Shown: positions 37,603 to 41,111 of the stretch, one piece after another
Position numbering within the stretch: position 1 is the first letter of the stretch
Layout of the letters: every line of letters begins with the position of its first letter
Source of the DNA: Chromohalobacter sp. 11-W
Lineage (GTDB): Bacteria > Pseudomonadota > Gammaproteobacteria > Pseudomonadales > Halomonadaceae
NCBI RefSeq assembly: GCF_029889905.1
Contig: NZ_JARANZ010000003.1
Coordinates: 62,001 to 126,000, forward strand
Length of the DNA: 64,000 bases
Direction of reading: 5' to 3'
The notes under the pieces: generated by a model
The model's input: only the letters and a program-made list of their open reading frames with translations
Told to the model about the DNA's origin: nothing
The model's database searches: none
Made by a program: the position numbers and the translations under genes

Positions 37603-38094
37603 CTAGCGGTGAATATCGAAGTCGAACCAGCTCCCCTCTTGCCCCTCAGGGGTTGTGAGAATCACTTGTGCCCGCCACGGCATGACCGTTTCCGTGCAAG
37701 GACGGAGCTCGCCCACGCCTCGGAAGTGGCCATCACCGACCTCTTCCAGCTCGACCCGAGTAAGGCCCATATTCATGTCACGTCCGACGAACTCCACGAC
37801 CGCCGACGCCACCTCGATACCGGATGTCTGCACATCCAGCGTCAACGGCTCGTACGAGGCGAAGTCGCCGTGTATCTCGAAACGCAACGTCCCACTCAAG
37901 CCGATATCGGTACGGCACGCCCCGTCGCGTAGATCGCAATGCATACGCGGGGGATACCAGGTGACGTTCTCGCGCGAATCACGCAGGTAATAGTCGGCGA
38001 GATAACCAGCCGCTACCAGAACCGTTATCAGCGTTACTAGCGTCAGTAGATTGAGCAGCGGCGATCTTACCGGATCTTCATCATGATGTTGCAT
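37603..38094 (-). CDS. Membrane-anchored protein of unknown function, possibly FixH-like
   Basis: Predicted to have about 163 residues with one N-terminal membrane helix (about residues 18-40, LLTLVTLITVLVAAGYLADY) and a periplasmic beta-rich domain. Visible features are two Cys in MHCDLRDGACRTD, VEFVGRDMNMGLTRVEL and ELRPCTETVMPWRAQVIL. The MNMG...C...MPW pattern recalls FixH/YtkA-type periplasmic domains linked to copper delivery, but this is inference. The start is uncertain: in-frame alternatives exist upstream to 38226, none with a clear ribosome-binding site. Confidence 0.6.
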   Translation of the reverse strand: MQHHDEDPVRSPLLNLLTLVTLITVLVAAGYLADYYLRDSRENVTWYPPRMHCDLRDGACRTDIGLSGTLRFEIHGDFASYEPLTLDVQTSGIEVASAVVEFVGRDMNMGLTRVELEEVGDGHFRGVGELRPCTETVMPWRAQVILTTPEGQEGSWFDFDIHR

Positions 38095-38212
38095 ATCGTT
38101 AGGTCGAATCCCATTACCCAGGGGCATCGCGCTAAGCTTACCAGTTCGTGTCCCGGCGAGCTTGGCTGCAGTCAGCGTCCGGTGTCCATGAAGTTGCTCA
38201 AGCGGAGGCACA

Positions 38213-39127
38213 ATGAGCGGTGTCACTGGGGCCCTGGGCCCTCTGTTTTTACTGATTCTACTCGGCGCCCTGCTGGGTTGGCGGCGTTTTCCCGGAGGCG
38301 ATTTCTGGCCCGCGATGGAACGGCTGATCTACTTTCTGCTGTTCCCCGCCATGCTGGTCTCGACGCTGGCTACGGCGAATGTGGCGCAGGTGCCGGTCAT
38401 CCGCCTGGCCGTGGTATTGATGGGCACCATGGCACTGTTCGCGCTGGGGCTCTGGTGCGCGCGTCATCGCCTCGCGCTGGCGCCATCGGCGTTCACCTCG
38501 GTGCTACAAGGCACGCTGCGCTTCAATACTTACGTAGGAGTCGCCGGCGCCGCCGCGCTACATGGCCAAGCTGGGGCGACGGTAGCCGCAGTCGCCGTTG
38601 CATTGATGGTCCCGCTGGCCAACATTCTCTGCGTGAGCGGTTTCATCGCCGCGGGCACGCTGGGGCCTTCTAGCTTGGGGCGCAGCCTGGCTGCCCTGTT
38701 GCGTAACCCCCTGATCCTGGCCTGTGTACTCGGTATCGCCCTCAATGTCACCGGCATCGGTCTGCCGGGTTGGCTGGGCAGCACCGTCGAACTCACTGGC
38801 CGTGCCGCCCTCCCGCTAGGGTTGATTGCCGTAGGCGTGGCACTGCGACCCAGTGCCCTTGTCGGCAGCGGGCATGCGTTCTGGTACTCGGCCACGCTCA
38901 AGCTTGTCGCCACCCCCGTGATCGTACTGGCCCTAGCCTGGCTGACCGGGCTCGACCCAGTGAGCCGCGACATCGCTCTTCTGTTCGCCGCCTTACCCAC
39001 CGCCACCTCGGCGTATATCCTCGCCCGCCAGCTAGGCGGTGACGCCGAGCTGATGGCGGCGCTAATTACCGGCCAGACCCTGCTGGCCATGGTGACGCTG
39101 CCAGCATGGATGGCACTGGCGAGTTGA
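38213..39127 (+). CDS. AEC family transporter
   Basis: Inner-membrane permease of the auxin efflux carrier (AEC) family, 304 residues with about ten helices in two inverted halves. LIYFLLFPAMLVSTLATAN at the N-terminus and DIALLFAALPTATSAYILARQLGGDAELMAALIT at the C-terminus are family blocks. Bacterial members move small organic acids such as malate; the substrate here is unknown. AGCGGAGG precedes the start. Confidence 0.9.
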   Translation: MSGVTGALGPLFLLILLGALLGWRRFPGGDFWPAMERLIYFLLFPAMLVSTLATANVAQVPVIRLAVVLMGTMALFALGLWCARHRLALAPSAFTSVLQGTLRFNTYVGVAGAAALHGQAGATVAAVAVALMVPLANILCVSGFIAAGTLGPSSLGRSLAALLRNPLILACVLGIALNVTGIGLPGWLGSTVELTGRAALPLGLIAVGVALRPSALVGSGHAFWYSATLKLVATPVIVLALAWLTGLDPVSRDIALLFAALPTATSAYILARQLGGDAELMAALITGQTLLAMVTLPAWMALAS

Positions 39128-39146
39128 GCCTCCCGACGAGACTAAT

Positions 39147-39196
39147 TGAAAAATATTCTCGTTACGCTTGACGATTCAAATGAGAATGGTTTACCT
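39147..39196 (+). promoter_or_regulatory. Promoter overlapped by two Fur-box-like sequences
   Basis: The -35-like TTGACG is at 39168-39173, followed by a 17-bp spacer and the -10-like TTACCT at 39191-39196. Against the 7-1-7 Fur model, 39147-39161 matches 10 of 14 positions and 39181-39195 matches 9 of 14, the second overlying spacer and -10. The arrangement fits iron-repressed transcription of the RNA starting near 39203; this is inference. Confidence 0.45.
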
Positions 39197-39202
39197 TAAC
39201 AA

Positions 39203-39318
39203 CCGTGGCGCCGCCAAGCGCCACTGACCTAAGCAGCGAATGTCAGGTTCCTGCCCATGGTTATCTCCTCATCAAGCTAGTCACGGTCTTTAAGCCGCCC
39301 ACCCGGGCGGCTTTTTTT
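39203..39318 (+). ncRNA. Candidate small regulatory RNA, possibly Fur-controlled
   Basis: About 115 nucleotides. A 5' stem-loop has a 7-bp perfect stem (39205-39211 with 39218-39224). A less structured middle contains TTATCTCCTCAT (39261-39272), complementary to a Shine-Dalgarno sequence. The 3' end is a rho-independent terminator: 9-bp stem 39292-39300 with 39305-39313, then seven T. The size, 3' end and Fur-like promoter resemble the RyhB/PrrF class, though I see no sequence identity with them. It has no convincing reading frame. Confidence 0.5.
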
Positions 39319-39416
39319 AGATTCATCGCAGAGCGGCATGAAATGAACAGGACCAAGGCAGGCAGCACTTTGCCAGCGTCTTGCTCGCCGTGACGTGATT
39401 CAGATCAGCCAGAATC

Positions 39417-39444
39417 GAAAAAACCGCTGCAAGCAGCGGTTTTC
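39417..39444 (-). terminator. Terminator downstream of trmB
   Basis: AAAACCGCTGC and GCAGCGGTTTT form a perfect stem around a tiny loop. On the minus strand the stem is followed by a T-run, so it should terminate transcripts coming from trmB; it may also act on the plus strand. Confidence 0.75.
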
Positions 39445-39502
39445 GAGGAAATCAGCGTTCTGTGTTGAAAGTGTTCTGTGAGAGCGGTGCTGCAACGTGC
39501 GC

Positions 39503-40252
39503 TCATCCGTCCTCACGGGCATAGATCAAATCCCAGACCCCATGGCCAAGCTTTTCGCCACGGCTCTCGAACTTGGTCAGCGGGCGGAATTCCGGGCGCG
39601 GCACATAGGGCGCGCTCTCAGCCGACGCCGTGTTGCGATAGCCCGGCGCCGCCTCCATGACCTCGACCATGTGCTCGGCGTAGGCTTCCCAATCGGTCGC
39701 CATGTGCAGATACCCGCCAGGCGCCAGACGCGTGCGTACCAGTTCGACGAAGGCCGGCTGCACGATGCGCCGCTTGTGGTGCTTCTTCTTCGGCCAGGGG
39801 TCGGGGAAAAACAGCTGCAGCCCCGTTAGGCTCGACTCGGGTAGACACTTACCGAGCACTTCCAACGCGTCCTCGCGGTACACGCGCAGGTTGGTCAGGC
39901 CGCGCTTATCCGCTTCGTCGAGCAGCTTGCCAACACCCGGCGCATGCACCTCGATGCCGATGAAGTCGGTCTCGGGATGTGTACTTGCCTGTTCGACCAG
40001 CGACTGCCCCATGCCAAAGCCGATCTCCACGACACAAGGCGCCTGCCGGCCGAACAGCGTCTCCAGCGACTGGCGGCCATCGGCCACGTTTAGCCCCAGG
40101 CGGGGCCAGACCTCTTCGAGCCCCCGCGACTGGGCAACGGTCATGCGTCCGGCGCGCAGTACATAACTCTTGATACCGCGCGGTGGGCGCGAGGATGACG
40201 CCGAGCCCGCCTCAGGGGCGTTCTCGGGGGAAGACGATGGTGAATCACTCAT
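39503..40252 (-). CDS. trmB: tRNA (guanine-N7-)-methyltransferase
   Basis: SAM-dependent enzyme that methylates G46 in the tRNA variable loop. From [14 protein letters not shown] it has 249 residues. The first 25 are a Ser/Pro/Ala-rich tail. After that come [12 protein letters not shown] (SAM motif I), [34 protein letters not shown] (the TrmB signature) and [17 protein letters not shown]. The ORF opens at a TTG two codons earlier; ATG at 40252 is preferred. It is downstream of thiG by 58 bp. Confidence 0.95.
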
Positions 40253-40310
40253 GGGCAAGTCTGCGTTATCGATCAGGTAGCGAAGCAGGCCGTGCGGGCC
40301 GCGAAAGGGT

Positions 40311-41111
40311 TCAGGCGTTGATGCGCCCGGCGAAGGGCGACGACGGGCTCGCCGATGCCCGACGTGGCATGCGTTCGGCGAGATACGCCTCGCGCCCCGC
40401 CTCCACCGCCAGTTTCATGGCATGCGCCATGCGCACCGGTTGTCGGGCGTTGGCGATGGCCGAGTTGATCAGCACGCCGGCGCAGCCCATTTCCATGGCC
40501 AGCGCAGCATCCGAGGGCGTGCCGATACCGGCATCGACGAGGATCGGCACCTCGGCATTGCCGAGGATGATCTCAAGCGTTGCCGGATTGAGCAGGCCAT
40601 GCCCCGAGCCGATCAATGAGCCCAGCGGCATCACCGCGCAACAGCCGATGCGCTCCAACTCCTTGGCGACGATAGGGTCATCGCTGGTGTAGACCATGAC
40701 ATCGAAACCGTCGTTGACCAGCGTCTCAGCGGCCTTGAGGGTCTCGACCACATTGGGGTAAAGCGTGCCATCGTCGCCCAGCACCTCGAGCTTGACCAGG
40801 TTGTGGCCGTCGAGCAGCTCGCGTGCCAGCTTGCAGGTCCGCACCGCGTCCTTGGCGGTATAGCAACCCGCCGTGTTGGGCAGGATCGTGTAACGGCTCG
40901 TCGGCACAGCGTCGAGCAGGTTGGGCTCATCGGGATTCTGGCCCAAGTTGGTGCGGCGCACCGCGACGGTGACGAGCTCGGTGCCACTCGCCTCGACGGC
41001 GGCGGCGGTCTCGTCGAAATCCCGGTATTTGCCGGTACCCACCAGCAGGCGTGATGAGAAGACGCGACCGGCGACGGTCAATGGGATGTCCTGGCGCTGC
41101 TCAGCGGACAT
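40311..41111 (-). CDS. thiG: Thiazole synthase
   Basis: Forms the thiazole phosphate of thiamine from deoxyxylulose phosphate, dehydroglycine and ThiS thiocarboxylate. The 266-residue TIM-barrel protein has [35 protein letters not shown] (Schiff-base Lys region), [15 protein letters not shown] and [26 protein letters not shown] lies before the start. It is 78 bp downstream of thiS. Confidence 0.96.

Follow-up and report, generated by a model that had tools for sequence, protein, structure and literature searches.

The window analysed here, a 64,000-nucleotide stretch of DNA from Chromohalobacter sp. 11-W, very probably holds a single-copy gene for a PrrF-homologous, trans-acting small RNA (sRNA) that would be repressed by Fur and spare iron, where expression, Fur control and pairing are what we infer from the sequence. 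A cmscan search run with an E-value threshold aligned positions 39168-39320 with the entire Rfam PrrF model (RF00444, model positions 1-150 of 150; 55.7 bits, E 5.3e-9), and the alignment covers the promoter/Fur segment, both hairpins, a near-identical core and the terminator. The core reads UUAUCUCCUCAUCA.GCUA.UCACGGU and equals the RF00444 consensus except at the two dots. The elements of the locus are as follows (coordinates of the window).

38213-39127, same strand as the sRNA: membrane transport gene (PF03547), the 5' neighbour
39147-39161, no strand assigned: upstream Fur-like site TGAAAAATATTCTCG, matching the 7-1-7 model at 10 of 14 positions
39168-39173, plus strand: -35 hexamer TTGACG, from the sequence; TTGAC is conserved and opens the Rfam PrrF match
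39181-39195, no strand assigned: Fur-like site TGAGAATGGTTTACC, 3' of the -35 and overlapping the -10, 9 of 14 positions
39192-39197, plus strand: probable -10 hexamer TACCTT, spacer 18, from alignment with relatives that read TATATT or TATCTT
39203-39318, plus strand: sRNA of about 115 nt, its start taken from the promoter and its end from the terminator
39205-39224, plus strand: hairpin 1, GTGGCGC..GCGCCAC, from fold and covariation
39226-39262, plus strand: hairpin 2, outer GACC/GGTT and inner GCAG/CTGC, preceding and partly overlapping the seed
39259-39275, plus strand: seed 1, GGTTATCTCCTCATCAA, complementary to the ribosome-binding sites of acnA, sodB and an IlvD/Edd dehydratase
39276-39286, plus strand: block 2, GCTAGTCACGG, the most conserved part, complement of the sdhC start CCGTGAATAGC with one mismatch
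39292-39318, plus strand: rho-independent terminator, stem 39292-39313 with 9 pairs, then a T run
39503-40258, strand opposite to the sRNA: trmB (PF02390; the gene name is our own reading)

The sRNA had remained unannotated because its score falls 34 bits short of the 90-bit gathering cut-off of RF00444, and a scan of the window at Rfam gathering thresholds returned nothing. This cut-off is a curation line, and the sRNA is therefore named here a PrrF homologue and not a member of RF00444 as Rfam draws that family. The features that mark PrrF were recovered: the core UUAUCUCCUCAUCA.GCUARUCACGG, of which intermediates occur in other families; a putative Fur box, recognised by sequence, overlapping the promoter as in PrrF; a PrrF-like structured terminator and 5' hairpin, with 10 of 11 pairs covarying; and, among the sodB, sdh and acn starts, complementarity to those of acnA, sodB and sdhC (the last with one mismatch) and none to that of acnB. 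The covariance-model comparison with RyhB and PrrF that had been suggested in the first-pass annotation thus matched PrrF, while a RyhB identity was ruled out, as RyhB is missing from the ten Rfam matches obtained at E<=10. The second-lowest E among these ten was 0.05, and the nine other matches (E 0.05 to 5.5) were discarded as weak, largely matches to terminators. The same annotation had likened the design to RyhB/PrrF-type RNAs, which agrees with a sRNA gene that has a seed and a promoter bearing Fur-like sites; its further remarks, that the conserved core was not recognised and that an independent family could be involved, have to be given up, as the core is that of PrrF and RF00444 aligns end to end with the gene as a whole, including its promoter.

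An independent family of iron-regulated sRNAs, PrrF-like by convergence on the pairing with ribosome-binding sites, would be in line with the score below the Rfam gathering cut-off and with hairpin and terminator sequences unlike the PrrF consensus. We regard such convergence as very improbable, since the common core GCUA-UCACGGU far exceeds an anti-Shine-Dalgarno run, the order of promoter/Fur segment, hairpin 1, hairpin 2, core and terminator is the same, the alignment with RF00444 spans the full model, and relatives are found well outside the family. The latter were detected with a model (R1) built from 45 aligned copies, all from the Halomonadaceae sRNA family. At E<=0.001 and with strict filters, R1 matched 39 of 293 genomes across the order; 12 of these belong to the own family, and 27 (E 1.3e-8 to 4.0e-4) are spread over six others. 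Eighteen of the other-family matches were fetched and read, and their cores include UAUCUCCUCAUCAGGCUAAUCACGG or CUCUCUCAUCAAGCUAAUCACGG, which are some of the intermediates toward PrrF. Homology with PrrF is the reading we retain.

R1 matched the sRNA of the window at 39204-39319 with 107 bits, a score obtained with a training set that includes the window itself. The region 39203-39318 folds with -46 kcal/mol (z -3.78), equalled by none of 200 shuffled sequences. RNAalifold gave a consensus of the 45 copies that consists of the terminator and hairpin 1 and in which 10 of 11 pairs covary, with compensatory changes in 5 of 6 consensus pairs of hairpin 1 and in 5 of 5 of the terminator; the earlier description of a structured RNA of about 115 bases with a 5' stem-loop and a strong rho-independent terminator is well borne out by these results. 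Hairpin 2 is absent from this consensus and the minimum free energy structure of the whole RNA (39203-39318) differs, while sub-region folds of the 45 aligned copies do show this hairpin, with stem bases changing, as judged by eye. The pyrimidine-rich seed for ribosome-binding sites that had been described is also present, reading TTATCTCCTCAT at 39261-39272, and is complementary to the acnA and sodB sites. An open reading frame across the sRNA (39205-39393, 62 aa, GTG start) passes through the terminator, and the length of the RNA differs between relatives; no reading frame is therefore kept, as had been stated before, and a protein-coding gene at 39205-39393 was ruled out by this frame and the alignment of relatives.

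The promoter pair TTGACG/TTACCT named in the first-pass annotation stands in its -35 hexamer, which is conserved, and is probably misplaced in its -10 hexamer. TTACCT occupies 39191-39196, 17 nt from TTGACG, and the relatives read TTATATT or TTATCTT at this position, so that TACCTT, one base to the right, is the likelier -10. This hexamer is weak, and a sigma-70 consensus scan of 38000-40500 called no promoter. The two matches to the Fur 7-1-7 model that were said to flank and overlap the promoter were obtained again with identical scores. Over 303,818 positions of the own genome (the 64-kb window plus twelve 20-kb stretches), a score of at least 10 was reached at 58 and of at least 9 at 353, and a single Fur-like site is therefore unremarkable; two putative sites whose starts are 34 bases apart and which lie in the conserved blocks of the relatives are not. 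The upstream profile of 41 non-redundant relatives reads aaTAAAAAa.aTTC.C.TT....TTGACg....AAATGAGAATGATTa, and its first block, aaTAAAAAa.aTTC.C.TT, holds the upstream Fur-like site. Conservation amounts to 1.2 bits per column in the promoter/Fur segment, a figure inflated by the pattern used for selecting the copies, to a mean of 0.85 in the preceding block, the columns of which lie outside that pattern and are free of this inflation, and to 0.13 farther upstream. It is possible that the A-rich block serves as an UP element as well. Among 70 core copies (L013-L087), 58 of the 68 with sufficient upstream sequence carry the promoter/Fur signature, two are short upstream, and ten are off the strict pattern, with a similar promoter seen by eye in five, one of these partly. 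Two FUR-family genes are found in the own genome.

The promoter region begins 20 bases past the 3' end of the transporter gene, and the RNA about 75, both on the strand of that gene; a 3' UTR or cis element of the transporter gene, with no separate gene involved, was also weighed. This is extremely unlikely: the sRNA has its own promoter with a conserved -35/Fur block, tandem copies with promoters of their own occur at Halomonas, Vreelandella and Modicisalibacter loci, and the RNA is homologous to a stand-alone sRNA. A separate sRNA gene is thus preferred. On the minus strand, a hairpin (AAAACCGCTGC/GCAGCGGTTTT) followed by a T run is found at 39420-39443; it is probably the terminator of trmB, which is convergent with the sRNA gene.

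The own genome contains one copy of the sRNA. By blastn, a match was found in all 10 genomes of the genus and, at E<=0.1, in 263 of 275 genomes of the family (own genome counted in both), many of the family matches being weak or partial. Among 61 family genomes, RF00444 matched 57 at E<=10 and 53 at E<=0.001, none of them over the cut-off; at the very loose E<=10, 6 of 14 control genomes matched too. R1 detected 73 copies in the window plus 80 named loci. Within 3 kb of trmB it matched at 63 of the 75 named Halomonadaceae loci (L032 and L033 among them being the two ends of a single contig), and in the trmB neighbourhood at none of five loci of Marinospirillum, Stutzerimonas and Alteromonas. 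Some of the 12 Halomonadaceae loci without a match have the sRNA elsewhere, e.g., Larsenimonas (L117, L085), and Marinospirillum alkaliphilum (G134) has a diverged copy at L309 though none at its trmB locus (L088). In this diverged copy, the core near position 206 has kept the ribosome-site seed and lost block 2.

At 7 of the 63 loci, the sRNA occurs two to four times within 3 kb of trmB. In Vreelandella alkaliphila (L025, 4868-5531, minus strand), four tandem copies follow each other about 183 bases apart; the promoter/Fur signature is missing from the three downstream ones, and longer read-through RNAs are therefore possible. PrrH of P. aeruginosa is a longer RNA of this read-through kind. 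Seed 1 has been replaced by GUUUCUCCCUCUCAUU, with block 2 unaltered, at L016, L024, L037 and other Halomonas and Vreelandella loci, so that different ribosome sites may be targeted there. Three genomes of family f35 (L246-L248) have a best-scoring copy that reads GCUAAUCACAG and a second copy nearby that keeps GCUAAUCACGG, and these siblings, one with an altered and one with an intact block 2, possibly divide the labour between them.

Targets of seed 1 were predicted against the start regions of 247 ORFs crudely called in 304 kb of the own genome, a background that flatters the target ranks because some of its genes are miscalled and have poor ribosome sites. Contiguous-helix energies were calculated with an incomplete stacking table in which missing stacks were set to -1.0, and the start codons of acnA were picked by ribosome-site score. 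Target prediction with the seed, as had been proposed for it, yielded helices at the start regions of acnA (UUGAUGAGGAGG; 12 nt, one G-U, equally strong in 1 of 247 background regions) and sodB (GUGAGGAGA; 9 nt, one G-U, equally strong in 4 of 247). By gapped duplex energy, the corresponding figures were 0/246 for acnA and 62/246 for sodB, the latter being unremarkable. No good site was predicted for acnB, the candidate starts of which rank 66/247 or worse, and the second SOD of the own genome scored poorly. With the own cores of 30 family genomes, acnA ranked within the top 10% in 20 of the 28 genomes parsed, and within the top 5% in 14 of them (G134 without a core and G171 without a start in range were left out). 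The best SOD was in the top 5% in 11 and the top 10% in 13 of 29 (G134 left out), a test that took one best-scoring SOD of either type per genome and in which some best helices lie outside the seed; in L196 the script recognised no SOD. For sdhC, contiguous helices placed 3 of 26 genomes in the top 5% and 5 in the top 10% (four left out).

A whole-genome search with the seed, allowing up to three mismatches, gave 26 matches (the sRNA itself included) versus 3 for the reversed control. Three of the 26 lie within 20 bases of an apparent true start, namely those of an NCS1-type transporter (L125), an IlvD/Edd dehydratase (L126) and a glyoxalase-like protein (L146), the first and third product names being our own reading and the target ranks of all three not being independent of the seed search. 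The transporter combines a strong seed match with no iron link. The dehydratase (NF009560, annotated as dihydroxy-acid dehydratase) belongs to an Fe-S enzyme family. The IlvD/Edd-family dehydratase gene of the own genome at L266:594-2399 is perfectly complementary over 12 nt (GAGGAGATAACC) at the ribosome-binding site and is a candidate for a lineage-specific target.

Block 2 was compared with the sdhC start. The GUG start codon of sdhC lies within CCGUGAAUAGC, which pairs with GCUAGUCACGG save one central mismatch (10/11), and the maximum among the 247 background starts was 9/11, reached by one of them; sdhC stood at 2/247 by duplex energy and at 29/247 by contiguous helix. Counted at the in-frame start with a threshold of 9/11, block 2 (GCUAGUCACGG) matched the sdhC start in 28 of 30 family genomes. 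In the other families, the match was present in 14 of 15 genomes with an R1 hit versus 2 of 13 without (Fisher p 5e-5, relatedness ignored), where "without" stands for genomes lacking an R1 hit at E<=0.001 and not for a proven absence, and where the two of 60 genomes with unparsed sdhC (G277, G286) both belong to those without a hit. G014 has a perfect complement of block 2 at sdhC.

It may be argued that this complementarity is incidental, arising from the conserved SdhC N-terminus VNSKRPVNLDL and a preference for AAT near starts, and that block 2 is kept for contact with Hfq or RNase E or for other targets. A/T-rich codons are commonly favoured near start codons, the counts are inflated by relatedness, and the mismatch has persisted unmended in most genera, though one change would suffice. 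Besides, two genomes deviate: G121 possesses block 2 with only 8/11 at sdhC, and 7/11 is reached in G514, whose R1 hit is weak, its core not having been read. We nevertheless hold an incidental origin to be unlikely, without dismissing it. Five genomes, each from a different genus, have a longer SdhC N-terminus, and in these the motif (exact or 1-3 bases off) is found at the start codon and not at RPVNL. G134 is changed in both places, with GCGAGTC in the sRNA block and CCGTGAAAGAC at the sdhC start. Furthermore, the Asn at codon 2 is encoded by AAT, the synonymous choice that pairing requires, in 38 of 38 Val-Asn-Ser starts, compared with 14 of 38 for the Asn a few codons downstream; the sampled Asn codons of the own genome are AAT in 758 and AAC in 1233 cases. 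We lean, with some reserve, towards the view that PrrF is an ancient sRNA in much of the order with two pairing blocks, a drifting seed and a near-frozen GCUARUCACGG held by the sdhC start, and that the frozen block and this start coevolve, having changed together in G134, down to a synonymous base of codon 2. The part with some novelty is this likely coevolution of the most conserved block with the sdhC start codon.

We envisage that, under iron sufficiency, Fur-Fe(II) would occupy the two promoter sites and keep the gene off, and that the RNA of about 115 nt would be made when iron is short. Its block GGUUAUCUCCUCAUCAA would then cover the Shine-Dalgarno regions of acnA, sodB and others, and its block GCUAGUCACGG the GUG start codon of sdhC. 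By pairing, PrrF and RyhB shut off translation of the mRNA and open it to degradation; the same course, presumably dependent on Hfq, would spare iron here.

Industry makes use of Halomonas and Chromohalobacter as halophiles (PHB, ectoine), and at the Rfam cut-off the sRNA arm of the iron response in these bacteria goes unnoticed. In the accessible literature covered, we found neither a PrrF homologue described for Halomonas, Chromohalobacter or Halomonadaceae nor a pairing of the sdhC start with block 2. In C. salexigens, ectoine synthesis is tied to iron and Fur (PMC6104435), and in Halomonas bluephagenesis the PrrF1 scaffold of P. aeruginosa has been used as a scaffold for engineered sRNAs (PMC13101641, PMC13414033). 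A native PrrF relative in Halomonadaceae could interact with PrrF1-scaffold designs. The Halomonadaceae copies also offer many natural variants for dissecting the parts of PrrF, and a testable explanation of its most conserved block.

In its Fur-like site overlapping the promoter, its two hairpins, core and terminator, the sRNA resembles PrrF1 and PrrF2 of Pseudomonas, as it does in the predicted targets acnA, sodB and sdhC. It differs from them in the diverged hairpins and terminator, in adjoining trmB, in block 2, which reads GCUAGUCACGG here and GCUAAUCACGG in PrrF, and in occurring once in the Chromohalobacter genome; two PrrF copies per genome are usual in Pseudomonas, a trait that we do not consider defining. 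The PrrF RNAs measure 116 and 114 nt according to PMC2851614, versus about 115 nt here, and the same source names sdhCDAB, acnA and acnB of Pseudomonas as PrrF-regulated; sdhC of Pseudomonas is given as an experimentally validated PrrF target in PMC8534726, and sdhC and sodB as confirmed targets of both RyhB and PrrF in PMC7377471. With RyhB of Escherichia coli, the sRNA would share repression by Fur and the iron-sparing mode of action, and has no sequence match (cmscan, E<=10). ArrF of Azotobacter vinelandii, NrrF of Neisseria and BrrF of Burkholderia, set beside it by description, are iron-repressed and alike in function; NrrF and ArrF are called PrrF homologues in PMC2851614, and BrrF is reported, in PMC7377471, to have no Fur box of its own and no sequence similarity to known Fur-regulated sRNAs. 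Placed among these systems, the sRNA is, judging from its alignment, a distant but clear relative of PrrF, i.e., a known kind of sRNA in a lineage where it had gone unannotated.
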